In this document: positions 2,632 through 16,559 of the stretch, one piece after another | How positions within the stretch are numbered: position 1 is the first letter of the stretch | How the letters are laid out: each line of letters starts with the position of its first letter | Source of the DNA: an uncultured Pirellula sp. | Lineage (GTDB): Bacteria; Planctomycetota; Planctomycetia; Pirellulales; Pirellulaceae | Length of the DNA stretch: 16,834 nt | NCBI GenBank assembly: GCA_903892365.1 | Contig: CAITIF010000067.1 | Span: 1 to 16,834 of the forward strand | Direction: 5' to 3' | Made by a program: the position numbers and the translations under genes | Notes under the pieces: generated by a model | What the model was told of the DNA's origin: nothing | What the model saw: only the letters and a program-made list of their open reading frames with translations | Databases searched by the model: none

Positions 2632-2638
2632 CTTGATA

Positions 2639-5600
2639 ATGTATCGCACGAATGCGTTCTTTAGGTTTTTTATAACCCTTCTCATCGGAGCAGCAGTCCC
2701 GTTTATTTTGGCAATCGACATTCTTGTTGCCGATGAGGATGTCGCTGTCGATGGCTCGATCACATCGGATGCTTTCTTCGAACGCGAAATTAGACCTTTC
2801 TTGAAAAAGCATTGCGTCCAGTGCCATGGTAAGGAAAAACAAGCCAGCGGATTGCGGCTCGATGCTCGCTCCTTTGCCTTTCGAGGCGGGGATAGTGGGC
2901 CTGTCCTGGTTCCCAACCAGAGCCATGCCAGTGAACTGTGGCTTCGCATTCAAAGCGAAGATGATTCGCTGCGCATGCCACCGGAGGGCGAGCCTTTATC
3001 AAGCCAAGAAAAGGAGCTCATTCGTGACTGGATCGATCGCGGTGCACCATGGATCGAATCGGACGAAGACCGACAAGCAATGACCGACCCAAGAAGGGAG
3101 CATTGGGCTTGGAAGCGGATTGCTTCTGTCGCTCCACCTGCCCCAACGGTCCCCGAAGTTTCAGAGTTCCCGCTTCGCAATACCATCGATCGATTTGTTT
3201 TGTCGAAATTGGCTGAACAAGGGTTACAGCCATCGCCGGAAGCGGATCGTCGGACGCTCATTCGACGCTTGTCCTTTGACTTGCTTGGCCTTCCACCAAC
3301 GCCCGATCAAGTGGCTGCGTTCGAGCTCGACACAGATCCCCTGGCTTATGAAAAGTTGGTCGATCGGATGTTAGAATCGCCGCAGTATGGTGAACGGGCC
3401 GCCCAACATTGGCTCGATATCTCCCATTTTGCGGACACTCATGGCTTTGAACGTGACCAAATCCGCGAACATGCTTGGCGATATCGGGACTGGGTCATCC
3501 GGGCATTGAACGAGGACATGCCCTATGATCGCTTCGTTCGTCTTCAGATTGCAGGGGATGCTATGGAACCGGACAATCCCCAAGCGGTCATCGCAACCGG
3601 CTTTCTTGCAGCTGGGCCCTGGGACTTTGTGGGGCAAGTTGAAACACCCAGCCCCGTATTGCGACGACTGGCTCGAGCTGATGATCTTGACGATATGTTG
3701 ACTCAAGTGCTCACGGCAACATGCGCGGTCACGATCAATTGTGCCCGTTGCCATGACCATAAGCTCGATCCGATATCGCAGAAAGAGTATTACTCGCTGG
3801 CCTCTGTTTTCGCAGGCACCAAGCGGGGCAACCGAAGTGTTTCTCAGGCGGAGTCGACGAAACTTGCGGAAGCTCGCAATCAGCTGTCCAGCGACATTCA
3901 GGAATTGAAACGCAAGCTTCAAGAATCCAAGCTCCCGAATTGGGACCTTGCGGATATTGTCGGCGGCGGCAACGGATTGAAGACGGGGCAAGCGAATCAA
4001 TCAATCGATCCAGCGACCGGACAAGTCCTGATTGAGTATCGAGGGTTCCTAGAGAATGCGATGCCCAATCGTTTTATGGAATCACCGCTGAAGATCATCG
4101 ATGGCGTTGCGATTCCGGACGGGGGTGAATTGGGGAACGTGACTGTTTCATCGACTGGTTTGGTGGCTCAGAACATTGCTCGCACGTCGGGAAAGTCTTG
4201 GGATGCCATTCGAAACGGCCCAGTGCACTCGCAGTTCTCGAACAAGCTTGCAGGATTGGATGTGGGTGATGGCTCGCATTCGGTCCTTGGAATGCATTCG
4301 AATTCGCTCGTGACCTTCGATTTGACCGAACTTCCAAATCTTTCGCCAGAGATTAGCCCGATCAACGAAGGGCTACGGCTTCGCGGTTCGTTAGGTTATT
4401 TCGGCCAAACACCGAAAAATGGTGCCAGCGTGTTAGTTCTTGTCGATGGATCAACGGCCTTTCGCCGGGAACGACTTGGACGGGACGACGGCATATCGGA
4501 TTTGGATATCGTCCTTCCCAAGGGAAGTCGATTCCTGACACTGATGGTGACCGATCTGGATCAAGATATCAGCCATGACCAAGTCTGCTTCATCAACTGC
4601 CGATTAGAGGCGACTCAAGCAATCGATCCCGAGGTGGAAAATGCAGAGCGCGAGCGAGTTGCAAGTATCCAAGCTCGAATTGCCGATTTGGAGAAACAGA
4701 TCGCTTCCCTTGTAGAAGTAGATCAAGTGTATGCGGTTCAAAGCGAGACACCGCCAGCCGTCCAGATTCTCGCCCGAGGTGATACCGAACAGGGGCGTGA
4801 TGAAGTGACGCCAAGTTCGTTGGAATGTCTTGAAGGGTTAGGCAATTTTTCTTTGGAGGCTTCGGCTTCCGACTTGTCGCGACGTCTTGCATTGTCGGAT
4901 TGGATCACCGATACGGCCAATCCTCTTTTTAAGCGAGTCATCGTGAATCGACTTTGGCAGCAGCACTTTGGGCAAGGTATTGTTGCGACCCCAAGCGACT
5001 TTGGTTTAGGAGGGGCACTGCCAACACACCCCGAGCTCTTGGATTGGTTAGCCAACGACTTTCATGAGAAGCGGTATTCCTTAAAGGCCATGCATCGTTT
5101 GATATGCTGCAGTTCAACGTATCGACAGCAATCGATCCTCGACTCGCAGCTTCCAAGCCATGCAAAGTCCACTGCGGTGGATGCAAACAATCGATGGTTA
5201 TGGCGACAGAACGCATTCAAGTTGGATGCGGAGTCCACGCGAGACGCAGTTCTTGCGGTAAGTGGCCAATTGGAGCCGTCCATGTTTGGACCTGGCTTTC
5301 GAGAATTCGACTACAAGGAAGAATATGCACCCGTCTATTCTTATGTGACTCGCAACGACCGGGAGGCAAATCGACGAAGCATTTATCGCTTTCGAGTTAG
5401 GACGACTCCGAATCCGTGGTTAACATCGCTCGATTGCCCGAATTCGGCGAACTTTACGCCAACTCGGTTTGTGACAACAACCGCCTTGCAATCGCTTGCC
5501 TTGCTAAATCATGATTTTGTTTTGCAGCAGTCTGAAAACTTGGCGAATCGAATTTCCAGTCTGCATGATGTTCCCAAAGACCAGATCGCAGTGGCATGGT

Positions 5601-5728
5601 CTTTGGTGTTCAGCCGCAAGCCTTCGGAACTCGAAATGCGAGCATCCGAAGAATTGATTGGCAAGCATGGTCTGTCCACTTTTTGCAGATACCTTCTCAA
5701 CTCGAACGAGTTTGTTTCCATAGACTAG
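2639..5728 (+). CDS. Exported PSCyt1-PSCyt2 (DUF1549)-PSD1 (DUF1553) cytochrome-like protein
   Basis: The product is 1029 residues from ATG 2639. A hydrophobic N-terminus (about residues 5-28) serves as signal peptide or anchor. PSCyt1 follows: CVQCH at 59-63 is a haem-c binding site and the Met of MPP at 113 is the likely axial ligand. PSCyt2/DUF1549 spans about 178-395 and contains FDLLGLPPTP and a second CxxCH, CARCHDHKLDP, at 368-378. A charged coiled-coil-like stretch covers about 402-430. A beta-rich region at about 540-658, ending in FLTLMVTDLDQDISHDQ, resembles an NPCBM carbohydrate-binding module. A second coiled-coil-like stretch (about 665-692) precedes the ARGD..EVTP linker typical of these proteins. 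PSD1/DUF1553 runs from about 748 to the C-terminus. These families are characteristic of planctomycetes and usually pair with DUF1501, as here. Role is unproven; periplasmic redox-linked polysaccharide processing is often suggested. Confidence 0.92.
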   Translation: MYRTNAFFRFFITLLIGAAVPFILAIDILVADEDVAVDGSITSDAFFEREIRPFLKKHCVQCHGKEKQASGLRLDARSFAFRGGDSGPVLVPNQSHASELWLRIQSEDDSLRMPPEGEPLSSQEKELIRDWIDRGAPWIESDEDRQAMTDPRREHWAWKRIASVAPPAPTVPEVSEFPLRNTIDRFVLSKLAEQGLQPSPEADRRTLIRRLSFDLLGLPPTPDQVAAFELDTDPLAYEKLVDRMLESPQYGERAAQHWLDISHFADTHGFERDQIREHAWRYRDWVIRALNEDMPYDRFVRLQIAGDAMEPDNPQAVIATGFLAAGPWDFVGQVETPSPVLRRLARADDLDDMLTQVLTATCAVTINCARCHDHKLDPISQKEYYSLASVFAGTKRGNRSVSQAESTKLAEARNQLSSDIQELKRKLQESKLPNWDLADIVGGGNGLKTGQANQSIDPATGQVLIEYRGFLENAMPNRFMESPLKIIDGVAIPDGGELGNVTVSSTGLVAQNIARTSGKSWDAIRNGPVHSQFSNKLAGLDVGDGSHSVLGMHSNSLVTFDLTELPNLSPEISPINEGLRLRGSLGYFGQTPKNGASVLVLVDGSTAFRRERLGRDDGISDLDIVLPKGSRFLTLMVTDLDQDISHDQVCFINCRLEATQAIDPEVENAERERVASIQARIADLEKQIASLVEVDQVYAVQSETPPAVQILARGDTEQGRDEVTPSSLECLEGLGNFSLEASASDLSRRLALSDWITDTANPLFKRVIVNRLWQQHFGQGIVATPSDFGLGGALPTHPELLDWLANDFHEKRYSLKAMHRLICCSSTYRQQSILDSQLPSHAKSTAVDANNRWLWRQNAFKLDAESTRDAVLAVSGQLEPSMFGPGFREFDYKEEYAPVYSYVTRNDREANRRSIYRFRVRTTPNPWLTSLDCPNSANFTPTRFVTTTALQSLALLNHDFVLQQSENLANRISSLHDVPKDQIAVAWSLVFSRKPSELEMRASEELIGKHGLSTFCRYLLNSNEFVSID

Positions 5729-5737
5729 AGCGGATAG

Positions 5738-7231
5738 ATGATCATGGAAAAGAATCGAGTCCTTTCAGCCGGGCCTGTAGCGGCTGGTCGACGTTCATTT
5801 CTGAAGCAGCTGGGCGATGGCTTTGGAGCGTGCGCTTTGACGGCATTGTTGCATTCTGAGGCGGTGCGAGCGTCTGATTCCACGATGGATACCACGACCA
5901 AGGATGAACGGGGGCAATCCCGTTTTCCACACCATGCGGCCAAGGCCAAGTCGGTCATTCAGATATTTTGCCCGGGAGGGCTAAGTCACGTCGATACTTG
6001 GGACTATCGGCCCGAGCTGACACGGCTGCATGGCAAGCCCTTTGACTCGGAGCTTGGCAAGCAAACTTTCGCTGGGATCGCGGGCGAGTACGCGAAGAGC
6101 TTTTGGGATTTCAGCCAGCACGGTCAATGTGGACGCTGGATGAGCAGTCTGTTTCCACAGTTGGCCAAGCATGTCGATGACATGGCATTTATCTATTCCA
6201 TGCAAAACAAGTCGGCTTTGCATGGCCCCGCTATGTTCATGATGAATAGTGGTTTTGTTCGGCCGGGATTTCCATCCATGGGATCGTGGGTCACCTATGG
6301 ATTAGGAAGCGAGAATGAGAACTTGCCAGCCTTTGTCGTTTTGCCAGATACGCGTGGGCTCCCCCCTGGGGGCGTTCTCAACTGGAACTCGGGCTTTCTG
6401 CCCGCGGTTCACCAAGGAACGGTACTGAGCACCACTGCCAACATGCCACCGATCGCCAACTTATTTCCGCGGAAAGGTCGGGAAGTCGAGCTTGAACACG
6501 ACGGACTTGCTTTCTTAAAAACGATCAACCAACAACATGCGTCGACGCGACAAGGGGACTCGATGCTGGAAGCTCGCATCGCAAGTTACGAATTGGCGGC
6601 ACGACTGCAATTGAGCGCCCCCGAAGCTGTCGATCTCAGTAGCGAATCAGGCTCAACCCACCAACGTTATTGTCTTGACGACGAGGACATTGGGCCTTTT
6701 GGACGGCAATGTCTGCTGGCTCGAAGGATGGTCGAACGGGGCGTTCGTTTCGTTCAGATCTTTTGTGGTGCAGAAAACACAAGCAGCAAAAAAATACGGC
6801 CCAATTGGGATTCGCATGAAGACATCGTTCGCGATCACGGATACTGGGGACGAATCTTGGATACGGGCGCAAGCGCTTTGCTCGAAGATCTCAAGCAACG
6901 TGGACTTCTGGATTCGACCTTAGTGATATGCACCAGCGAATTTGGAAGACAACCGTTCATGCAAGGCAAACAAAAAGGACGCGATCATAACCCAGGTGTG
7001 TTTACCGCATGGATGTCTGGTGGAGGAACACAAGGTGGTACTTCCTATGGAAGCAGTGACGACGTTGGCTTTAAGGCGCTCGATAAACCAACGTATTCGT
7101 ACGACCTCCATGCGACCGCGCTCCACCTGCTTGGGATCGACCATGAGCGGTTAAGCGTTTATCACGATGGAATTCAGCGCCGGTTAACCGATGTCCATGG
7201 GAATGTACTGAAAGAGATTATTCATAGCTAG
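5738..7231 (+). CDS. Tat-exported DUF1501 protein (alkaline-phosphatase/sulfatase-like fold)
   Basis: The product is 497 residues and follows the cytochrome-like gene after 9 bp. ATG 5738 is used; ATG 5744 is equally plausible, with GGA at 5732-5734 nine bases before it. The N-terminus has a twin-arginine signal, GRRSFLK at residues 17-23, followed by a short hydrophobic segment and a Ser/Asp/Thr-rich stretch, so folded export is expected. DUF1501 motifs are clear: CPGGLSHVDTWDYRPEL (78-94), PNWDSHEDIV (355-364), TSEFGRQP (399-406) and GRDHNPG (414-420). His and Asp residues in the latter motifs probably bind metal, as in the alkaline phosphatase superfamily. The substrate is unknown. The tandem PSCyt/DUF1501 arrangement is common in planctomycetes and implies the two products act together outside the cytoplasm. 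Confidence 0.93.
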   Translation: MIMEKNRVLSAGPVAAGRRSFLKQLGDGFGACALTALLHSEAVRASDSTMDTTTKDERGQSRFPHHAAKAKSVIQIFCPGGLSHVDTWDYRPELTRLHGKPFDSELGKQTFAGIAGEYAKSFWDFSQHGQCGRWMSSLFPQLAKHVDDMAFIYSMQNKSALHGPAMFMMNSGFVRPGFPSMGSWVTYGLGSENENLPAFVVLPDTRGLPPGGVLNWNSGFLPAVHQGTVLSTTANMPPIANLFPRKGREVELEHDGLAFLKTINQQHASTRQGDSMLEARIASYELAARLQLSAPEAVDLSSESGSTHQRYCLDDEDIGPFGRQCLLARRMVERGVRFVQIFCGAENTSSKKIRPNWDSHEDIVRDHGYWGRILDTGASALLEDLKQRGLLDSTLVICTSEFGRQPFMQGKQKGRDHNPGVFTAWMSGGGTQGGTSYGSSDDVGFKALDKPTYSYDLHATALHLLGIDHERLSVYHDGIQRRLTDVHGNVLKEIIHS

Positions 7232-7358: not shown

Positions 7359-7386
7359 ATGACAAAAAGTCACTCCTTCCTACAAT
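7359..7386 (+). promoter_or_regulatory. Predicted sigma-70-like promoter of the nuo operon
   Basis: ATGACA (7359-7364) matches the -35 consensus TTGACA at five of six positions. After a 16-bp spacer, TACAAT (7381-7386) matches TATAAT at five of six. Transcription would start near 7392-7394, giving a leader of about 50 nt before nuoA. A small inverted repeat, TGAC-AAAAA-GTCA (7360-7372), overlaps the -35 box and spacer. The prediction is by eye, but its position just before the palindromic operator supports it. Confidence 0.55.
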
Positions 7387-7397
7387 ACAGGGAGAAG

Positions 7398-7417
7398 TTT
7401 GTGAAACTTTTCACAAA
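7398..7417. promoter_or_regulatory. Rex-type operator (redox-sensing repressor site) before nuoA
   Basis: The palindrome is TTTGTGAAA (7398-7406), centre CT, TTTCACAAA (7409-7417), with perfect 9-bp arms. The inner 18 bp (7399-7416) match the Rex consensus TTGTGAA-N4-TTCACAA exactly. Rex represses respiratory and fermentative genes until NADH rises relative to NAD+, and in some actinobacteria nuo is a target. Here the site lies about 5-24 bp after the predicted transcription start, a typical repressor position, and 24 bp before the nuoA start. The core also matches the CRP-like pattern TGTGA-N6-TCACA, so a CRP/FNR-family regulator is the alternative. Gene content and the downstream position favour Rex; no rex gene is in the window. 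Confidence 0.65.
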
Positions 7418-7441
7418 GTCGCTCCTCCGCAGGAATCGGTC

Positions 7442-7822
7442 GTGGCTAACTATCTTCCCATATTGATTTATCTTATTGCCGTGATTGGGTTTGCGGCTGT
7501 CTCGCTCATCCTTCCTCACCTTGTTGCGCCCAGGCGGCACACGCGGGTGAAGGACATGCCGTACGAATCGGGGATGGACCCGGTAGGTGACGCCAGGAAG
7601 CCTTTCGATGTCAAATTCTATTTGATAGCGATCTTGTTTTTGGTTTTTGACGTTGAGCTCTTGTTCATTTATCCGTGGGCGGTTTCGCTGCTTGCTCCGG
7701 ATGGGGTTCCAGTGGACTTTCGACCGGCTGTTTTTGTTGTCTTGATCATATTGATTGCGACCTTGGCTTTGGCCTACTTGGTTGCCTATCGTAAAGGGGT
7801 GTTTGATTGGCGACGCAAATAA
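7442..7822 (+). CDS. nuoA: NADH-quinone oxidoreductase subunit A
   Basis: A 126-residue membrane subunit of respiratory complex I. Three hydrophobic helices are visible at about residues 4-28, 58-84 and 93-116. The family signature [12 protein letters not shown] (40-51) is followed by [20 protein letters not shown], placing conserved acidic residues near the quinone-site loop. Its role is structural, beside NuoH and the hydrophilic arm; it carries no cofactor. The start is GTG 7442 with AGGAA (7431-7435) six bases before it. It is the first gene of the nuo operon, behind the predicted promoter and Rex-type operator. Its end overlaps nuoB by 16 bp. Confidence 0.96.
7794..7799 (+). promoter_or_regulatory. 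Ribosome binding site supporting the TTG start of nuoB
   Basis: AAGGGG lies inside the end of nuoA, seven bases before TTG 7807. An in-frame TGA at 7804-7806 excludes any earlier start, and no ATG or GTG occurs in frame before the first conserved motif, so the TTG is the likely initiator. Confidence 0.6.
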
Positions 7823-8409
7823 ACAAGCAACTTGGTGACAATGTCTTTTTGACGACATTGGACGCAGCTGCCTCTTGGGGGCGTGCCAACAGTCTATGGC
7901 CAATGCCTTTTGCTACGGCTTGCTGTGGTATTGAGTTAATGAGTACAGCGGCTAGCAAGCATGACTTGTCTCGGTTCGGCAGTGAGGTGATGCGGTTTTC
8001 TCCGCGTCAGTGCGACTTGATGATTGTCGCAGGGCGTGTTGTGATGAAAATGCTACCGGTTTTGCAGCGAATTTGGTTGCAGATGCCTGAGCCGAAGTGG
8101 TGCATTTCGATGGGTGCCTGTGCATGCTCGGGCGGGGTTTTCGATACCTACTCGGTGGTTCAAGGGATCGACCGGTTTATGCCGGTGGATGTTTATGTTC
8201 CTGGTTGTCCACCGCGTCCGGAGCAGTTGATCAAGTCGATTCTTGATTTGCAGGCCAAGATTCAAAGTGGTGGTACGGTGAATGCTCGTGAGTTTAAGTT
8301 GCGAGTGCTCCCAGAGGGGCCATCGCGGTTTGATGAGGAAGAATTGATTCGGATCCGGGAGCGGAATGGTTTCAAGCTCGAAGACCCTAAGTACGATCCG
8401 GTGCACTAA
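7807..8409 (+). CDS. nuoB: NADH-quinone oxidoreductase subunit B (N2 iron-sulfur subunit)
   Basis: A 200-residue hydrophilic subunit of complex I that binds cluster N2, the last iron-sulfur centre before ubiquinone or menaquinone. The expected ligands are all present: tandem C39-C40 in [12 protein letters not shown]105 in [11 protein letters not shown] and C134 in [11 protein letters not shown]. The position two after C105, usually Asn in the family, is Cys107 here, an extra cysteine near the cluster. The start is TTG 7807, overlapping the end of nuoA by 16 bp. The C-terminal tail after about residue 160 is charged and less conserved. It packs against NuoD and NuoH at the quinone site. Confidence 0.96.
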
Positions 8410-8413
8410 CATC

Positions 8414-8959
8414 ATGTCCAATCAACCCAGTACCAATAAAGCTGTTCCTGGTTCCACTACTCAGATGGAATCCACTAAGGCTAGTCTTGTTGCGGCGTTG
8501 CCGGGCATTGAGCTGACTTGGTCGGTTTTTTGCTCGCAAGACCGAGTCGTGTTTCCTGCCGGTTCGCTCATGAAGGTTTTGCAGGCCTTCAAAGCAGCTG
8601 GTTTTGATCAGCTGACCGATTTGACGGCGGTCGATCTCTTGGAGTACGGGAGCGCGTCCGATCGATTCGAAATTGTTTATTGTCTGCTCAATGTCGATTC
8701 CGGGCTTCGTCTGATTGCGAAGACTCATCTCAGCGAGCCTGATTTGACGATTCCCTCAGCCACTCAGGTTTGGTTTGGTGCGGACTGGCTGGAGCGTGAA
8801 GTTTATGACATGTACGGCATCATTTTTGATGGCCATCCAAACTTCAAGCGACTTCTTTTGCCTCAAGAATTTCAGTCGTTTCCGCTGCGAAAAGATTATC
8901 CAGTGAAGGGGCGCGGCGAACGCCATAACTTCCCAGTCGTGACGCGAGCTGAAAGCTAA
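8414..8959 (+). CDS. nuoC: NADH-quinone oxidoreductase subunit C
   Basis: A 181-residue peripheral-arm subunit (30-kDa subunit family) without cofactors, bracing NuoD. The signature runs from WFGADWLEREVYDMYGI through FDGHPNFKRLLLP to FPLRKDYPVKGRGER near the C-terminus. ATG 8414, four bases after the nuoB stop, is preferred. The in-frame ATG at 8366 would overlap nuoB by 44 bp and add a low-complexity stretch. No strong Shine-Dalgarno is seen before 8414, so translation may depend on coupling to nuoB. The first 20 or so residues are Ser/Thr-rich and poorly conserved. It is not fused to nuoD, unlike in Escherichia coli. Confidence 0.94.
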   Translation: MSNQPSTNKAVPGSTTQMESTKASLVAALPGIELTWSVFCSQDRVVFPAGSLMKVLQAFKAAGFDQLTDLTAVDLLEYGSASDRFEIVYCLLNVDSGLRLIAKTHLSEPDLTIPSATQVWFGADWLEREVYDMYGIIFDGHPNFKRLLLPQEFQSFPLRKDYPVKGRGERHNFPVVTRAES

Positions 8960-8975
8960 ACAGGAACGAACCGAT

Positions 8976-10196
8976 ATGCCTTTAGAATTGATCGACGATC
9001 CGAGCCTTGGCAGCGACAAACGCGAAGGTCTTTGGACTTTGAACTTTGGTCCTCAGCATCCTGCCACACACACTACGCTTCGGTTGGTGTTGCAACTGGA
9101 TGGTGAAATGGTGATCGATGCGGAGCCTGACATCGGGTTTTTGCATAGCGGTTTCGAAAAGCTAGGTGAAGTGCTGGATTTTAATCAGTATGTCACCATC
9201 GTTGACCGCATGAATTACATCTCGCCGTTGGCCAATGAGATCGCATGGCATCATTCGGTAGAGAAGTTGCTTGGGATCGAGTTGACGCCTAGGTGCAAAT
9301 ACATCCGAACCATCTTTGCGGAACTGATGCGGATCCATGACCACCTGCTTTGCACGGGAACTTGCGTGCTGGACCTTGGCGGTGCGACTGCGTTTATGTA
9401 CGCATTCAATGAGCGGGAAGCTATCTATGAAATTTGCGAACGCGCTTCTGGACAGCGATTTCACACTTCGTATACCCGTGTTGGTGGTCTGCTGTACGAC
9501 GTGACCGATGACTGGGTGGATATGGTCAAGAAGTATTGCAAGAACTTTCCGAAAGCGTTCCGGGATTTCGAAGGTCTCGTGATGAAGAACCGGATCTTCG
9601 TAGAGCGAACTCGGGATGTGGGAGTTCTTTCTAAGGAGGATGCGATAGCAGGCGGAGCGACGGGGCCAGTGGCTCGTGCCAGCGGAGTGGTTCGGGACTT
9701 ACGGCGAGACGAGCCTTATCTTGCGTACGATGAATTGGATTTCGATGTTTGTGCGAGCCAAGGTGGCGATTGTTACGCTCGGTTTCAAGTGCGGATGATG
9801 GAGATGCTAGAGAGCATCAAAATCATTGAACAGGCTATCGATAAGCTACCGTCGGGACCGATTTATGCTTCTGGTACTGGAAAAGAAACCATACCGGACA
9901 AGCGAGAAGTTTATCGCAGCATCGAAGGGTTGATTCACCATTTCGAAGGCATCATGCCAAATCGCCAAATGGCAAGCCCGAAAGATTCTGTATACGCAGC
10001 AACCGAGTCGCCGAATGGTGAATTGGGGTATTACATTGTTGGGGATGGATCGTTCCGTGCTTATCGTGCTCGGACTCGTCCACCTTCCCTTTTGCACTTT
10101 TCTCTGTTCGCACGGATGATGAGGGGCTGCATGCTAAGCGATGTCGTAGCCGTTTTGGGAAGTATCAATATCATCGCAGCGGAGTTAGACCGATGA
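8976..10196 (+). CDS. nuoD: NADH-quinone oxidoreductase subunit D (quinone-site subunit)
   Basis: A 406-residue 49-kDa-type subunit of the peripheral arm, forming the quinone pocket with NuoB. FGPQHPATH (24-32) and DRMNYIS (77-83) are present; H32 and Y81 have the 49-residue spacing of the quinone-head-binding His and Tyr in Thermus Nqo4. Also visible are DIGFLHSGFEKL (52-63), the region GGATGPVARASG and the C-terminal SINIIAAELDR ending in Arg, as usual for the family. The start is ATG 8976 with AGGA (8962-8965) ten bases upstream. The stop overlaps the nuoE start as ATGA. Confidence 0.97.
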   Translation: MPLELIDDPSLGSDKREGLWTLNFGPQHPATHTTLRLVLQLDGEMVIDAEPDIGFLHSGFEKLGEVLDFNQYVTIVDRMNYISPLANEIAWHHSVEKLLGIELTPRCKYIRTIFAELMRIHDHLLCTGTCVLDLGGATAFMYAFNEREAIYEICERASGQRFHTSYTRVGGLLYDVTDDWVDMVKKYCKNFPKAFRDFEGLVMKNRIFVERTRDVGVLSKEDAIAGGATGPVARASGVVRDLRRDEPYLAYDELDFDVCASQGGDCYARFQVRMMEMLESIKIIEQAIDKLPSGPIYASGTGKETIPDKREVYRSIEGLIHHFEGIMPNRQMASPKDSVYAATESPNGELGYYIVGDGSFRAYRARTRPPSLLHFSLFARMMRGCMLSDVVAVLGSINIIAAELDR

Positions 10197-10669
10197 GTGA
10201 ACTGAGTACGAACGCCAAGAAGGTTATCGAAGAACATTTAGGTCGATACCCCAGCAAGCAAGCGGTGACCTTGCCAGCTTTGCATGTGGTTCAGCAAGAG
10301 ACAGGATGCGTGAGCCGTAAGGCTATTTCCGAAATTGCAGACATTTTGGAGCTGTCGCCAGCCCAGATCAACGACACGCTTTCTTTCTACGGCTTTTTCC
10401 GAACCGAAGAAGATCCACTTGGCAAAAAGCGAGTTTGGATTTGTCGTTCGTTGCCTTGCATGTTGCGTGGTGGAGAGGAACTGCTGGCTGAACTTTGCCA
10501 ACGTTGGGGGATTCAGCCCGGTCAGACTACTGCAGATGGGGAAGTGACGCTGGAGTTGGCTGAATGCCTAGGAGCATGTGATGGAGCTCCTTGCATGCTG
10601 GTTGATGACGAATTGACACTGCGGGTGACTGCGGACGATGTTGAGAAGCAAGTTCGAGGTAACAAGTAG
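10193..10669 (+). CDS. nuoE: NADH-quinone oxidoreductase subunit E (2Fe-2S, 24-kDa type)
   Basis: A 158-residue thioredoxin-fold subunit of the NADH-input module that binds cluster N1a. The ligands are C84 and C89 (CRSLPC) and C125 and C129 (CLGAC), the standard Cx4C...Cx3C pattern. The N-terminal helical domain (about 1-70) contains LPALHVVQQETG and SPAQINDTLSFYGFF, as in other NuoE proteins. Translation is probably coupled to nuoD through a four-base overlap. Its presence together with nuoF and nuoG shows that the enzyme takes electrons from NADH. Confidence 0.96.
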   Translation: MSELSTNAKKVIEEHLGRYPSKQAVTLPALHVVQQETGCVSRKAISEIADILELSPAQINDTLSFYGFFRTEEDPLGKKRVWICRSLPCMLRGGEELLAELCQRWGIQPGQTTADGEVTLELAECLGACDGAPCMLVDDELTLRVTADDVEKQVRGNK

Positions 10670-10672: not shown

Positions 10673-10677
10673 AAATG

Positions 10678-12012
10678 ATGAGCAACGACAATTTTCAACC
10701 CGTGTTATTAGCTCGGCAAAACAAGCCAAACAGCCATACTCTGGCGTCCTATCAAGCGGATGGCGGCTACCAAGCGTTAGCCAAAGCCCTCAAAATGGCG
10801 AATACCGAAGTCATCGATGTCGTGAAGGCTTCCGGGCTTCGCGGTCGAGGTGGCGCGGGCTTCCCAACCGGATTGAAGTGGACCTTTTTGCCCAAGGATG
10901 TCAAAGGTCCGATCTATCTGTGCATCAACGGTGACGAGAGCGAACCGGGCACGTTCAACAATCGAGTTCTGATCGAACAAGACCCGCACCAAGTGTTAGA
11001 GGGGATTGTCATCAGCAGTTTTGCGACTCGAACGACCACCGCCTATTTTTATCTGCGTTACGAGTACGGGCGTTGCTACCGAGTGCTCAAAGATGCGATC
11101 GACGAGATGTATGACAATAATCTTCTCGGCAAGAACATTTTGGGGTCCGGCTACGACCTGGACATCCACTTGCATCGCGGAGCATGTGCTTACATTTGCG
11201 GTGAAGAGACCGGACTCATCGAAAGCTTGGAAGGTAAGCGAGCCTGGCCTCGGATCAAGCCACCCTTCCCTGCCATCGAGGGAGCGTTCCGCAAACCTAC
11301 AGTCGTCAACAACGTGGAGACGATGGCCTGCATACCTCACATCATCAACCACGGTCCTGAATGGTTCATGTCGATGGGGATTCCCAAAGATCCCAACAAT
11401 CCGCGAGATGCGGGCTCTTATGGGCCGAAGTTGTATTGCATCAGCGGCCACGTGAATAAGCCTGGGTTGGTTGAGTTGCCGATGGGTATTTCAGCTCGGG
11501 ACTTGATTGAAAAGCATGCTGGCGGCGTCTGGAAGGGACGCAAGGCCAAGGCTGTCGTCCCAGGCGGTATCAGCATGGGTTTTATGAGCGAGAGTGAATT
11601 GGATACACCCTTGGATTTTGCGGGCCCGGGACGCGTCGGTTGTCTTGGGCTTGGCACGGCGGCAGTGATTGTGATCGATGATCACACCAGCATGGTGGAT
11701 GTGCTTTACAACGCATGTCGATTTTTTGCTCACGAATCTTGTGGTCAATGCACTCCTTGTCGCGAGGGGACTGCGTGGTCCACCAAGATCTTGGAACGTA
11801 TTCGTGACGGAAGAGGCAAGTTGAGCGACATTGATTTGCTGCTGGAAATATCGTCGTCGATTGGAACCATTCCCGGTACCACGATCTGTGGACTTGCTGA
11901 CGGTGCGGCTTGGCCCATGAAGACTGCGATCAACAAATTCCGTGGCGAGTTTGAAGAGTACATCAAAAGCGGACGCAAAAGCGAAAGCCGTTCGTTAGCC
12001 GGTGCTCACTAG
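10678..12012 (+). CDS. nuoF: NADH-quinone oxidoreductase subunit F (FMN and NADH binding)
   Basis: A 444-residue catalytic subunit where NADH is oxidised and passes a hydride to FMN. The glycine-rich FMN/NADH site GLRGRGGAGFPTG is at residues 53-65, followed by CINGDESEPGTFNNR (82-96) and ICGEETGLIESLEG (173-186). Cluster N3 is bound by C355, C358 and C361 in SCGQCTPC plus C404 in TTICGLADG. The C-terminal tail is Lys/Ser-rich. Two adjacent ATGs exist; 10678 has the better ribosome-site spacing. The gene starts 8 bp after the nuoE stop and is followed by the operon's largest gap (152 bp) before nuoG. Confidence 0.97.
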   Translation: MSNDNFQPVLLARQNKPNSHTLASYQADGGYQALAKALKMANTEVIDVVKASGLRGRGGAGFPTGLKWTFLPKDVKGPIYLCINGDESEPGTFNNRVLIEQDPHQVLEGIVISSFATRTTTAYFYLRYEYGRCYRVLKDAIDEMYDNNLLGKNILGSGYDLDIHLHRGACAYICGEETGLIESLEGKRAWPRIKPPFPAIEGAFRKPTVVNNVETMACIPHIINHGPEWFMSMGIPKDPNNPRDAGSYGPKLYCISGHVNKPGLVELPMGISARDLIEKHAGGVWKGRKAKAVVPGGISMGFMSESELDTPLDFAGPGRVGCLGLGTAAVIVIDDHTSMVDVLYNACRFFAHESCGQCTPCREGTAWSTKILERIRDGRGKLSDIDLLLEISSSIGTIPGTTICGLADGAAWPMKTAINKFRGEFEEYIKSGRKSESRSLAGAH

Positions 12013-12164: not shown

Positions 12165-13877
12165 GTGGCAAAGGTAATCGTTAACGACGTCGAAGTCGAA
12201 GCTGACCCCAAGGACAACTGCATCCTTGCCGCTCGCAAGGCTGGCGTTGAGATTCCGCATTACTGCTGGCACGAATCGCTATCGGTAGTAGCGTCTTGCC
12301 GTATGTGTTTGGTGGAAGTCGGCGAAAAGAAGCCTGACGGCACCATTGCTTGGGGCCCTAAGCTGGTCCCTGGATGCCAAACACCGATCAAAGAGGGAAC
12401 GGTTATTAGGACGGATTCTGCGAAGGTGAAAACGACCCAGCAGATGACGCTTGAGCTTTTGCTTTTGAATCACCCGCTCGATTGTTCCATTTGCGATCAA
12501 GCGGGTGAATGCTACTTGCAGGACTACACCTACAAGTATGGCAAGGCACAAAGCCGCCTGGATGAGCCCAAGCTGCAGCGTATGGACAAGTATCATATCG
12601 GTGAGCAGATTGCACTGTTTACCGACCGCTGTGTGATGTGCACTCGTTGCGTTCGATTCACGCGAGAGATCAGTGGTACCGCCGAACTGCAAGTCGTAGC
12701 GCGTGGAAGCCATGAAGAGATCGACGTGTTTCCAGATGTTCCATGCGATAACAAATTAGCTGGTAACGTTGTCGATCTTTGCCCAGTTGGAGCTCTATGC
12801 AGTAAAGACTTTTTGTACAAGAAGCGAGTCTGGTGGTTAAAGCATGCCGAAAGCGTTTGCACGGGCTGTTCGACGGGTTGCAGTATCCACATCGATCAGA
12901 ATGAAGACAAAGTTTACCGATTGAGACCTCGTGAGAATCCGTTGGCACAAGGGCACTTTATGTGCGACGAAGGCCGATTTGGGTTCAAGTACATCCACGA
13001 CGAACGACGCTTGACTCGGCCGAAATTGAGCGATGCGGTATCAGGTGCTGCGAATCGCAAATCGCATGCCACAACGACCGCTGGTTCAGGGGACCTCAGT
13101 TTCGCGGATCCTTGGACAGACGTTCTGGAAGTTGCTCGGCGTAAAATCAAAGATGCCGTGAAGTCAGATGCTCGTGGTTTTGTTGCGGTTCTTTCTCCTT
13201 TTATGACCGTGGAAGAAGCGTACTTGCTTGCTTCGTTCCTGAAGGGATTGGACAAACGAGTTCGGTTGGTACTGGGCCCCGTGCCGATGGTTGGATCCGA
13301 TGACAAGTATCCGAAAGGGCCTAAGGGCGAATCGCCTGCTGAAGACAAAGTCCGTTTTACGATCCGAGCCGAAAAGTGCCCGAATCGCCTTGGGGTGGAA
13401 GCGGTGCTTCGCCACTTTGAAGGTCAAATCACCGGACTAGAACAAATGATGGCTGGTGCAAATGCAACTTCTTGGTTCTTGGTAGGTGGCAACAGCGAAG
13501 GTTGGGTAACGGAATCGATAGACCGAGCTGTGGGTCAGCCTGGGTTATTGATTGTGCAGGATATTTTCCCGTCGCCGCTGAGCGAGCGAGCGGACATTTT
13601 GCTTCCATCAGGTTCGTTTGCGGAACGTGAAGGAACTTACGTGAACCATTCAGGCTTGGCACAGGCAGTTCAGGCCGCAGTTCGATGCCCCGGGGATGCT
13701 CGGGCGGACGGAAGAATTTTGTTGGAATTGGCGGAGCGCAAGGGTCTTTTCAATGCGATGGCCATTCGGAAAGAAGTCGGCAATGCCATTCCTTCGCTTG
13801 TTGCTCTTACCGAGGGAGACTTAGGCGAGCATGGGGTCAAAATCGGCGGCGTCGCTCGTGAACCCATTCATTCCTGA
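12165..13877 (+). CDS. nuoG: NADH-quinone oxidoreductase subunit G (iron-sulfur wire subunit), short form
   Basis: A 570-residue subunit that carries electrons from NuoF/NuoE towards NuoI. Clusters readable from N to C are: 2Fe-2S N1b (C34, C45, C48, C71, with an inserted loop before C71), His-ligated N5 (H103, C107, C110, C116), N4 (C156, C159, C162, C206) and N7 (C232, C235, C239, C267). After about residue 270 comes a molybdopterin-oxidoreductase-like domain without recognisable cofactor residues. It includes DIFPSPLSERADILLPSGSFAEREGTYVN, split here only by reading position (about 465-493). The protein is shorter than Thermus or Escherichia NuoG, so this domain is reduced. The start GTG 12165 is chosen for the family N-terminus; its ribosome site is weak. 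Confidence 0.93.
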   Translation: MAKVIVNDVEVEADPKDNCILAARKAGVEIPHYCWHESLSVVASCRMCLVEVGEKKPDGTIAWGPKLVPGCQTPIKEGTVIRTDSAKVKTTQQMTLELLLLNHPLDCSICDQAGECYLQDYTYKYGKAQSRLDEPKLQRMDKYHIGEQIALFTDRCVMCTRCVRFTREISGTAELQVVARGSHEEIDVFPDVPCDNKLAGNVVDLCPVGALCSKDFLYKKRVWWLKHAESVCTGCSTGCSIHIDQNEDKVYRLRPRENPLAQGHFMCDEGRFGFKYIHDERRLTRPKLSDAVSGAANRKSHATTTAGSGDLSFADPWTDVLEVARRKIKDAVKSDARGFVAVLSPFMTVEEAYLLASFLKGLDKRVRLVLGPVPMVGSDDKYPKGPKGESPAEDKVRFTIRAEKCPNRLGVEAVLRHFEGQITGLEQMMAGANATSWFLVGGNSEGWVTESIDRAVGQPGLLIVQDIFPSPLSERADILLPSGSFAEREGTYVNHSGLAQAVQAAVRCPGDARADGRILLELAERKGLFNAMAIRKEVGNAIPSLVALTEGDLGEHGVKIGGVAREPIHS

Positions 13878-13946: not shown

Positions 13947-15140
13947 ATGTACGATTTCCTCCAGCAAATATGGCCGACGTTATGGCCGACCCTTGCTGCC
14001 ATTGGTGTGATTCTCGCCTTTGTGCCAGTGTTGGGCCTGTACATGACCTTCATTGAGCGCAAGTTAGCTGCTTATGTCCAAGATCGTTTGGGGCCAAATA
14101 GGGTTGGGCCTTTTGGATTGTTCCAGGCGATTGCGGATGCTATCAAGCTCTTTTTGAAAGAGCAGGTGATTCCGGATCACGTATTCAAACTGTTGTATTT
14201 CATTGCCCCGACGCTTAGCCTGATGACCGCCATGTTTGCATTGGTGGTAATGCCTTTTGGACCAGTTCCAACCGACTACACCAGCGGGTTCCGGTACATA
14301 GTTGCACCTGGGATCGACATTGGAATCATGATGATGATCGCCATCAGTTCTCTGTCTGCGTACGGTATCATTTTGGGTGGTTGGGCGTCTAATAATAAGT
14401 ACTCGTTGTATGGAGCGATTCGCTCTTGTGCGCAGTTCATCAGTTATGAAATACCCCTTGGGCTTTCGATCATTGGAATCGTCGTTGCGGCAGGCTCCTT
14501 GAACATCGAACAGATCGTTGCAGCCCAGAGCGGAGACTTTTGGAATTGGAATATTTTCTGGCAACCTCTGGCATTGATTGTTTTCTTCACGAGTGCTTTG
14601 GCGGAAACCAACCGCCTGCCGTTTGACTTGCCAGAATGCGAACAGGAACTGGTAGGTGGGTTTCATACGGAGTACGGTGGAATCAAGTTTGTTTTGTTCT
14701 TCTTGGCCGAATATACACACGTAGTAACGGTCAGTTTCTTAACTGCGTTGCTGTTTTTTGGTGGGTGGCATTTCCCAGGCTTGTCAGGACCGGTGGACGC
14801 AGGGCTTGGCGGCATGCTTCTCAGGACGTTTGTTTTGGTAGCAAAGGTTTCGATGGTGGTTGCGTTCATCATGTTGTTACGGTGGGCGTTGCCTCGATTC
14901 CGTTTCGATCAATTGATGGGACTGGCCTGGAAAGGGTTGATTCCGCTTGGATTGGTCAATCTTGTTTGCGTCGCTGTGGTGTTTACCTTTGATCTGCCTA
15001 AGCATTTGTTGTCGTTCACGGCGGTGTTCCTGTTTGTAGCTTCCCTAATAAGTGCAAGAAATCTGCAATCGACGATCAACATGCCACGTTCGGCCGGACG
15101 TCCGAAAGCGGGATCGATTTTGAGTGAGGTCACAGTATGA
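13947..15140 (+). CDS. nuoH: NADH-quinone oxidoreductase subunit H
   Basis: A 397-residue membrane subunit joining the peripheral arm to the proton-pumping arm and lining the quinone tunnel. About eight or nine hydrophobic helices are visible. Conserved loops include FIERKLAAYVQDRLGPNRVG (residues 35-54) and GLFQAIADAIKLFLKE, the latter known to face the quinone channel. LAETNRLPFDLPECEQELVG (about 218-237) forms the acidic cytoplasmic loop. The gene starts 69 bp after nuoG with no strong ribosome site. Its stop overlaps nuoI as ATGA. The C-terminus has a short polar extension after the last helix. Confidence 0.97.
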   Translation: MYDFLQQIWPTLWPTLAAIGVILAFVPVLGLYMTFIERKLAAYVQDRLGPNRVGPFGLFQAIADAIKLFLKEQVIPDHVFKLLYFIAPTLSLMTAMFALVVMPFGPVPTDYTSGFRYIVAPGIDIGIMMMIAISSLSAYGIILGGWASNNKYSLYGAIRSCAQFISYEIPLGLSIIGIVVAAGSLNIEQIVAAQSGDFWNWNIFWQPLALIVFFTSALAETNRLPFDLPECEQELVGGFHTEYGGIKFVLFFLAEYTHVVTVSFLTALLFFGGWHFPGLSGPVDAGLGGMLLRTFVLVAKVSMVVAFIMLLRWALPRFRFDQLMGLAWKGLIPLGLVNLVCVAVVFTFDLPKHLLSFTAVFLFVASLISARNLQSTINMPRSAGRPKAGSILSEVTV

Positions 15141-15760
15141 GTACCGAAACGAAGAAAGTGAAAACCGTCAAGTGGGGCGAAGAGCCCAAGCTTGGCTGGA
15201 AAGAGGCCATGTATTTGCCGGCGATAGCCTCCGGTTTGATGACCGCATTGAAGCATGCTTTTTCTGGCAAGACCACAACCAGGCAGTACCCTGATGTGGA
15301 ACCAGTGATCCCGGCAAACTACCGAGGGGTTCATCGATTGAACCGGGATGAAGCAGGTCGAGTCAAGTGCGTGGCATGTTACATGTGTCAAACAGCTTGC
15401 CCAGCCAATTGCATTGAGATCATTGCAGCCCCTGCACCGAAAGACGATCCGCATTGGAAGGATCGCGATAAGTTTCCCGAAACATTCACGATCGACGAAT
15501 TGCGATGCATCTACTGCGGTATGTGCGAAGAGGCATGTCCGGTGGATGCGATCGAATTAACGAGCGTCTACGATCTAACCGGAATGTCTCGCCAGGAGAT
15601 GATTTTCGATAAAGAGAAGTTGCTATCTGTATTCGACGAAACAGTCAATTCAGGGCGGGATCCGATTCGTACCAACCGAGGTGCCTTGGGGCCAGCTTCT
15701 GAAGAGGCCTCGACGGCAAAACAAGGTCCACCTCCGCCAGGAAGGGGACGCCACGGCTAA
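15137..15760 (+). CDS. nuoI: NADH-quinone oxidoreductase subunit I (two 4Fe-4S clusters)
   Basis: A 207-residue ferredoxin-like subunit holding clusters N6a and N6b, which pass electrons from NuoG to N2 in NuoB. Two ferredoxin motifs are intact: C78, C81, C84 with C88 (CVACYMCQTACP) and C124, C127, C130 with C134 (CIYCGMCEEACP). The Pro after each last Cys is typical. The N-terminal amphipathic part (about 18-40) would lie on the membrane against NuoH. The last 30 or so residues form a Ser/Pro/Gly-rich tail (GPPPPGRGRHG) not needed for the fold. Translation is coupled to nuoH by a four-base overlap. Confidence 0.96.
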   Translation: MSTETKKVKTVKWGEEPKLGWKEAMYLPAIASGLMTALKHAFSGKTTTRQYPDVEPVIPANYRGVHRLNRDEAGRVKCVACYMCQTACPANCIEIIAAPAPKDDPHWKDRDKFPETFTIDELRCIYCGMCEEACPVDAIELTSVYDLTGMSRQEMIFDKEKLLSVFDETVNSGRDPIRTNRGALGPASEEASTAKQGPPPPGRGRHG

Positions 15761-15779
15761 GCCGAAAGCGACACATATT

Positions 15780-16559
15780 ATGGATTATCAATTTACGGAT
15801 CCGACTTGGCAGTTGGGCATGATCACACCGATTGTGCTTGGGGCTTTGTCCTATCTTTTCTTGCAACACGGCGTGCTTGCAAAGTCAAAACAACTCATTG
15901 CAGCTGGGGTTATTTCTCTTTGCGGGGCGATTGTCTTCGCGATTGGATTTGCTCCTTCTACGATAGAGGCCGTAATGCTGATGTGCTTCTGTTCCATCGC
16001 GACGGTAGGTGGAATTAGCTTTTTGGTGGCACGCGAGCCAGTGTATGCGGCCTTGGGGTTTGCGACTGCGGTTCTTTCAACATGCGGAATCATGTTCATG
16101 CAGTCGGCCTTGTTTTTGGCAGCTGCTACCATGATCGTCTATGCAGGTGCCACGATCATTATCTTCTTGTTTGTTCTGATGTTTGCTCAGCAGACGCAGC
16201 TAAGAACTTATGACGTTCAGTTGACGCACCCAGTCGTGGCGGCTGCCATCGGTGCTGTATTGCTAATTACGATTGCCATGTGCGTCACCGGAGAGAAGGG
16301 CATCAAGTTGGCTTCTCCAGACGCTTCGCGTCCGTATAGCGGTGCAGTTTTGCCTGAAGACCTGCGGTCGAAGGCTGCCACCGATTTCTTGAAAACGCGA
16401 CCGATCGAGTCCATGTCGGTGCCGGGCACAACGGCTGGATTGGGCCGTTCGTTGTACACAGATTATTTGATTGCAGTTGAACTTGCGGGCGCTGTCTTGC
16501 TAGTCGCAACCATTGGAGCGATTGCTTTGGCCCAACGACCAGCGGAGAATTTATCATGA
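15780..16559 (+). CDS. nuoJ: NADH-quinone oxidoreductase subunit J with N-terminal membrane extension
   Basis: A 259-residue membrane subunit of the proton-pumping arm. The NuoJ core begins around residue 60 and includes VAREPVYAALGF and the helix AAATMIVYAGATIIIFLFVLMF, whose pi-bulge glycine region (YAGA) is conserved. Compared with the Escherichia coli protein (184 residues), about 55-60 residues with two extra hydrophobic segments (about 14-30 and 38-57) precede the core. A polar loop of about 60 residues lies before the last helix. ATG 15780, 19 bp after nuoI, is preferred; the in-frame ATG 15681 would overlap nuoI by 80 bp and add a basic non-membrane stretch. The ribosome site is weak. 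The stop overlaps nuoK as ATGA. Confidence 0.92.
   Translation: MDYQFTDPTWQLGMITPIVLGALSYLFLQHGVLAKSKQLIAAGVISLCGAIVFAIGFAPSTIEAVMLMCFCSIATVGGISFLVAREPVYAALGFATAVLSTCGIMFMQSALFLAAATMIVYAGATIIIFLFVLMFAQQTQLRTYDVQLTHPVVAAAIGAVLLITIAMCVTGEKGIKLASPDASRPYSGAVLPEDLRSKAATDFLKTRPIESMSVPGTTAGLGRSLYTDYLIAVELAGAVLLVATIGAIALAQRPAENLS

Follow-up and report, generated by a model that had tools for sequence, protein, structure and literature searches.

A probable Rex operator at the complex I promoter of an uncultured Pirellula and its conservation across the order Pirellulales

Our analysis of the window, by which we mean the whole 16,834-nucleotide stretch of uncultured Pirellula DNA considered here, makes it very probable that the palindrome at 7398-7417 is an operator of the redox-sensing repressor Rex, through which the complex I (nuo) operon beginning just downstream would be repressed in an NAD+-dependent manner and released by NADH. 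The site, which is assigned to neither strand, reads TTTGTGAAACTTTTCACAAA, or TTTGTGAAA-CT-TTTCACAAA, and the perfect palindrome described in an earlier sequence-only reading is borne out by its two 9-bp arms, which are exact reverse complements of each other; the 2-bp CT centre is not itself symmetric. A consensus scan of the window places TTGTGAA-N4-TTCACAA, the Rex consensus named in that reading, at 7399-7416 with zero mismatches, and this 18-bp core is kept in 27/27 genomes of the genus. Several features by which a Rex operator is recognized are present: the site matches the consensus, it lies in or beside the predicted promoter of energy-metabolism genes, a Rex protein is encoded, and the upstreams of orthologous genes conserve the site. 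A Rex operator at nuo is of an already known kind. No report of Rex in planctomycetes was among the papers that our literature search listed; the study of Ravcheev (2012), reportedly a comparative study of Rex, lay outside that search.

The strict motif is largely confined to one place. In the 4.37 Mb source assembly (971 contigs, estimated 78% complete, the window being its contig C67) the exact TTGTGAA-N4-TTCACAA occurs as a single copy, the one at nuoA, and the search for further palindromes before cyd, adh or ldh, proposed in the sequence-only reading, gave no exact copy in this 78%-complete assembly. At equal base frequencies an arithmetic estimate gives ~6e-5 exact matches for the window. 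Matches with up to three mismatches are common by chance (mean 1.02 in shuffles), and weight is therefore placed only on the exact match and its conservation. The assembly holds 15 places within two mismatches of the consensus against 7 for the reversed control, and only the nuoA place is exact; 13 of the 14 others fall inside open reading frames of at least 70 aa and one (L007) stands at a contig end. TTGTGA-N6-TCACAA has 35 occurrences in the genus (27 genomes), 27 of them at nuoA and 8 elsewhere, with 6 occurrences of the reversed control, and the full consensus is found away from nuoA in three copies, of which G002 has two and G025 one (none in the genus for the reversed control); each of these copies (L235-L237) lies within an open reading frame of ~1000 aa. 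Because copies elsewhere are few and either at chance level or internal to reading frames, the strict motif in the genus points to nuoA, with no other intergenic place seen. Rex in the window's genus may control little besides complex I.

The operator stands beside a predicted promoter that is conserved together with it. The good -35/-10 pair that had been noted just upstream is recovered as a sigma-70-like ATGACA-16-TACAAT with 10/12 matches (7359-7386, forward strand), with its -35 element ATGACA at 7359-7364 and its -10 element TACAAT at 7381-7386. In 27/27 genus genomes TGACAA stands equally far from the operator, to within 1 nt, and 12 or 13 nt separate the end of TA[CG]AAT from the core of the operator. 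Transcription would be expected to start near 7393, so that the operator would span about +6 to +25, and the GTG start of nuoA at 7442 lies 24 nt past the operator. The genes that follow, all on the forward strand, are nuoA (7442-7822, the first of the operon), nuoB (7807-8409), nuoC (8423-8959, start chosen at the 8423 ATG), nuoD (8976-10196), nuoE (10193-10669), nuoF (10675-12012), nuoG (12165-13877), nuoH (13947-15140), nuoI (15137-15760) and nuoJ (15681-16559, putative start), and the operon is seen from nuoA to nuoJ, the contig ending at 16834. Each was assigned by its NCBIfam match; nuoA (E 1.6e-24), nuoE, nuoG and nuoJ (E 7e-23) score below the curated cut-offs, yet in each case the top match is to the subunit named here. 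For the best 25 of 66 relatives' loci NuoA identity is 76-99%, all of them from Pirellula, Planctomycetaceae or Planctomycetota. Upstream of the promoter, 2633-5728 and 5738-7231 hold two long genes that we take to resemble the planctomycete pair of a cytochrome-c-domain and a DUF1501 protein.

The palindrome is widely conserved across the order Pirellulales. We compared 82 nuoA upstreams, one per genome (27 from the genus, 18 from other genera of the family and 37 from other families), and counted a site where at most one mismatch to TTGTGA-N6-TCACAA was found within 400 bp of the gene. By this measure the site precedes nuoA in 27/27 genus genomes, 14/18 of the other family genera and 33/37 of the other families, 74/82 in total, while letter-shuffled upstreams carry it in 9 of 11,200; the eight upstreams that lack it are those of G033, G041, G066, G069, G087, G095, G103 and G112, the last with only 164 nt upstream. 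A chance palindrome, for which nothing speaks beyond the short length of the site, is refuted by these counts and its probability is practically nil: the palindrome is confirmed as real and beyond chance. The comparison of relatives' nuoA upstreams that had been called for thus found the palindrome kept throughout the genus, and the earlier proposal of a Rex-type operator before nuoA is supported by this conservation, by the conserved promoter and by the rex gene described below. The 82 upstreams belong to one NuoA type, and each genus genome shows a single NuoA match; a second, longer NuoA-like type, found in many genera outside the genus in frames mostly of 200-330 aa scoring about 39-57 bits, lies outside the counts.

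The pattern of variation within the site is informative as to what reads it. In the genus all 14 fixed positions of the core are invariant before nuoA (27/27), including A at position 7 and T at position 12, and only the centre varies. An RNA hairpin in the 5' leader of the nuo mRNA would be an alternative use of the same symmetry, since the palindrome would be transcribed at about +6 to +25 and could pair over 9 bp. Invariant arms that show no covariation, with changes only in the centre, are the pattern of a protein-DNA site, and Rfam gave no match for the window and seven relatives' loci; this reading of the operator is rejected on the lack of covariation in the genus and retains only the slimmest likelihood. 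Order-wide the palindrome is kept unevenly: of the 47 non-genus sites, 17 have A and 16 have C at position 7, the rest having T or G there, whereas all 47 have T at position 12. Conservation also reaches beyond the published 18-bp consensus. An AGT 3' of the core (7417-7419, forward strand) accompanies 26/27 genus nuoA sites, 27/33 sites in other families, 7/14 in other family genera and 11/25 nqrA sites; ACT precedes the core in 6/14 sites of other family genera, 13/33 of other families and 11/25 at nqrA, and in 4/27 genus sites, where AGT before the core is commoner (17 vs 4, n=27). The flanked form CTTTGTGA-N6-TCACAAAG gave 51 hits over 396 order genomes (partly overlapping the 117 relatives), against 1 for the reversed control; it appears in no genome of family f17, and the window's own site does not fit it either.

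The regulator itself is encoded. A search for a rex homologue, proposed as a check in the sequence-only reading, recovered a Rex fragment from the source assembly, cut by a contig end and scoring 156 bits against a cut-off of 126 for NF003995, and an intact Rex (225 aa as delimited, over the NCBIfam Rex cut-offs) from the near-twin G002, whose NuoA is 99% identical. The Rex domain PF06971 is present in 100/117 relatives, 26/27 in the genus, and in 96/392 genomes of the phylum, 94 of them above the cut-off, with up to 17 Rex candidates scored per genome in the phylum run. The closest solved structure to the G002 protein is Thermotoga maritima Rex (E 2.4e-47), for which PMC8836258 gives Arg48, Lys49, Arg60 and Gly61 as key to DNA recognition and Arg12, Ser33, Glu34, Lys43, Gln46, Ser52, Gly58 and Tyr64 as further DNA contacts. 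By alignment the four key residues correspond in G002 to R62, R63, R74 and G75, hence a Lys49 to Arg change, and the source-assembly fragment has the same four. Arg12, Ser33, Gln46, Ser52, Gly58 and Tyr64 are retained in G002, and the NADH-switch residues Tyr100 and Asp191 are Y114 and D207, invariant in 14 aligned Rex proteins. Weighing against the Rex reading are the truncation of the assembly's own rex, the replacement in G002 of Glu34 by G and Lys43 by N, and a Pro in place of Arg60 in 18/19 loci outside the genus. In the 30 of 100 Rex genomes in which positions 49 and 60 were read, they are R/R in 11/11 genus loci and K/P in 18/19 others, G046 having K/R. Residues of the recognition helix and wing thus change between the genus and the rest (L001, L077-L105), paralleling the change in operator and leader. 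Autoregulation of rex was considered and rejected, as the upstreams of the 30 rex loci (of the 100 Rex genomes) hold just four hits within two mismatches, 468-1011 nt upstream.

The palindrome can also be read as TGTGA-N6-TCACA, a target for an activator or repressor of the CRP/FNR type, and that part of the earlier suggestion stands, the motif matching exactly. Outside the genus, moreover, C or T frequently replaces A at position 7 while TTGTGA-N6-TCACAA is retained, and 16/27 genus genomes show weak PF13545 matches (E up to 0.001). What fails is the regulator: all 27 genus genomes carry the site, yet PF13545 exceeds its cut-off in only three, two of them barely so (about 27 bits, counting neighbours, against a cut-off of 27), leaving G015 alone as clear (63 bits). 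The single-contig genome G005 is among those with no PF13545 match over the cut-off, whereas all 14 control genomes were positive. The invariant A and T at positions 7 and 12 in the genus likewise speak against this reading, and C or T at position 7 is known from footprinted Rex sites: in PMC5355995, Streptomyces avermitilis sites with TTGTGAC and TTGTGAT are footprinted, the former at nuoA1, where the site is TTGTGACCTGCTTCACAT. For want of a clear regulator (PF13545 clear in 1/27) the CRP/FNR reading is rejected for the genus, and we regard it as very improbable. Neither of the two findings that had been named as fatal to a Rex operator, loss of the palindrome in close relatives or a CRP/FNR-family protein in place of Rex, was encountered; close relatives keep the site, and few genus genomes have a Crp/Fnr-type HTH that exceeds the cut-off.

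The distribution of the Rex protein across genomes speaks partly for its link to the site. In a set of 109 genomes, from which four late nqrA upstreams were left out, the site precedes nuoA or nqrA in 88/94 genomes with Rex and in 10/15 without (p = 0.007; p = 0.018 when the genus is removed), and in the phylum sample an exact site anywhere accompanies 10/96 Rex-positive and 5/296 Rex-negative genomes (p = 5e-4), both Fisher tests ignoring shared ancestry. Six of the 94 Rex-positive genomes lack a site at the threshold, and 5/15 Rex-negative genomes (G035, G066, G069, G112 and the single-contig G087) have no site either. The main objection to the Rex reading is that 10/15 genomes with no detectable Rex retain the site. 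Among them are G021 (of the genus) and G063, each with a listed completeness of 99%, G085 and G101, which share one genus, and G104 and G113. A full-length Rex profile matched nothing in the 17 PF06971-negative relatives, whereas it matched three positive genomes included for comparison. Missing sequence in draft genomes may account for these cases. A Crp-type factor is no better a candidate. Another dimeric regulator could be what recognizes the site, either everywhere or only where Rex is lacking, and the pair of Rex-less genomes from one genus, together with a downstream half that, with its AGT, exceeds the published Rex half-site length, would suit such a protein. Set against it, site and Rex co-occur above expectation in both the order and the phylum sample, and the sequence and targets of the site fit the Rex model, so that we consider an alternative regulator unlikely.

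Under the Rex reading, a Rex dimer carrying NAD+ would occupy the operator, with its predicted span of about +6 to +25, and stop RNA polymerase on nuo at or just after initiation, blocking initiation or promoter escape; as NADH builds up, NADH-bound Rex would leave the operator and nuo would be made, and complex I, by oxidizing NADH, would close the loop. Binding by Rex, repression and release by NADH are here expected by analogy with studied Rex proteins. In Bacillus subtilis, Rex is said to sense NADH/NAD+ and to be linked with the NADH dehydrogenase by which it is reset (Gyan 2006); the logic would be the same, but with Ndh in place of complex I or Na+-NQR. A close parallel is the Rex operator of S. 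avermitilis nuoA1-N1, which shares the motif class and the target operon; PMC5355995 describes repression of nuoA1-N1 by Rex and a lowering of its DNA binding by NADH, and on this analogy Rex-NAD+ should block the nuo promoter here and NADH should lift the block. The same source places the Rex-protected region at -42 to -16, between and over the -35, in another phylum, in contrast to about +6 to +25 from the start predicted here. Staphylococcus aureus Rex sites, as described in PMC2883068, have the identical consensus (TTGTGAA-W4-TTCACAA) and lie in or adjoining promoters, as here; the targets reported there are many and include fermentation and nitrate genes, whereas within our genus the strict consensus is prominent only at nuo. 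T. maritima Rex, solved with NAD+ and operator (PDB 7WB3; PMC8836258), belongs to the same family, most DNA and NAD residues being kept, but the operator half in that complex is TTGAGA, differing from TTGTGA here, its Lys49 is Arg in the window's genus, and its Arg60 is Pro in most rex loci outside the genus. If the Rex reading holds, the feedback loop of Rex and NADH/NAD+ would extend to Planctomycetota.

Consistent with an NADH sensor, the site appears to track the NADH-oxidizing enzyme, whether nuo or nqr. NqrA was found in 34/117 relatives, none of them in the genus, and the site (at most one mismatch, within 400 bp) precedes nqrA in 28/34 (25/30 and 3/4 added later); several exact sites away from nuoA stand before nqrA, NqrA being Pfam-confirmed for one. 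The nuoA type counted here and nqrA are both present in three genomes. Na+-NQR has been proposed as a stand-in for complex I in Stieleria-type marine planctomycetes, and the portion of PMC11588811 that proposes it does not mention Rex. These observations suggest that the enzyme under the switch, complex I or Na+-NQR, was exchanged within the order while the switch itself was retained.

Outside the genus the operator is often part of a more elaborate leader. Among the 47 site-bearing nuoA upstreams, 34 have TTGAC-N15-19-TAnn[AG]T upstream, 28 have a GC-containing stem followed by a T-run, 13-18 nt lying between stem and operator in 26 of them, and in 23 the promoter is followed first by the hairpin and then by the operator. 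Among the 26 hairpins there are 23 different stem sequences, and in the 23 cassettes the hairpin starts 6-18 nt downstream of the -10, which places it near the RNA 5' end. Letter shuffles yield ~2 terminator-like sites and dinucleotide shuffles 0 promoters, against 33 observed at a slightly different reach. The hairpin is present in 3/25 nqrA upstreams and in 0/27 genus upstreams, where the promoter stands directly at the operator, and G073 and G108 carry the full promoter-hairpin-operator cassette before nqrA instead of nuoA. Folding energies lie weakly below those of shuffles (mean z -1.5, 32% below -2; hairpin-free genus leaders -1.4, 26%) and so hardly separate leaders from shuffles, leaving the case for the hairpin to the stem and T-run scan and its spacing. 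Hairpins were counted singly, a MAFFT alignment of the leaders (46, with G050 left out) being too gappy for a covariation count. Possible roles for the hairpin are those of an attenuator, of a 5' stabilizer or of the terminator component in a Rex roadblock. We put forward tentatively, as a possibility short of an even chance, an order-wide Rex switch on nuo and nqr in which non-genus nuo leaders, often with TTGACC-N17-TAnnAT, a 5' hairpin and T-run and an operator 13-18 nt later at ~+40, would couple a roadblock to early leader termination as a repressor-attenuator hybrid. The leaders of these relatives raise the new question of whether a repressor bound just past a leader terminator can tune that terminator.

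A few exact sites stand beside other genes or elements of the order. In G046 four exact palindromes with the ACT flank (L064, L231, L232 and L233; site 1501 in each) lie in near-identical leaders, 70 nt upstream of the point where a row of 37-nt repeats separated by unique spacers begins. These repeats form CRISPR-like arrays, of which three were scanned and a fourth was seen; the palindrome there would be a regulator site within a CRISPR-like leader. In G083 (L230, site 1501) an exact site lies just before or at the putative start codon of a menaquinone-biosynthesis gene (PF02621). In four genomes, small CBS-domain genes likewise have an exact site 128-268 nt upstream (L062, L067, L228 and L229), which makes these genes a candidate recurrent second target in the order.
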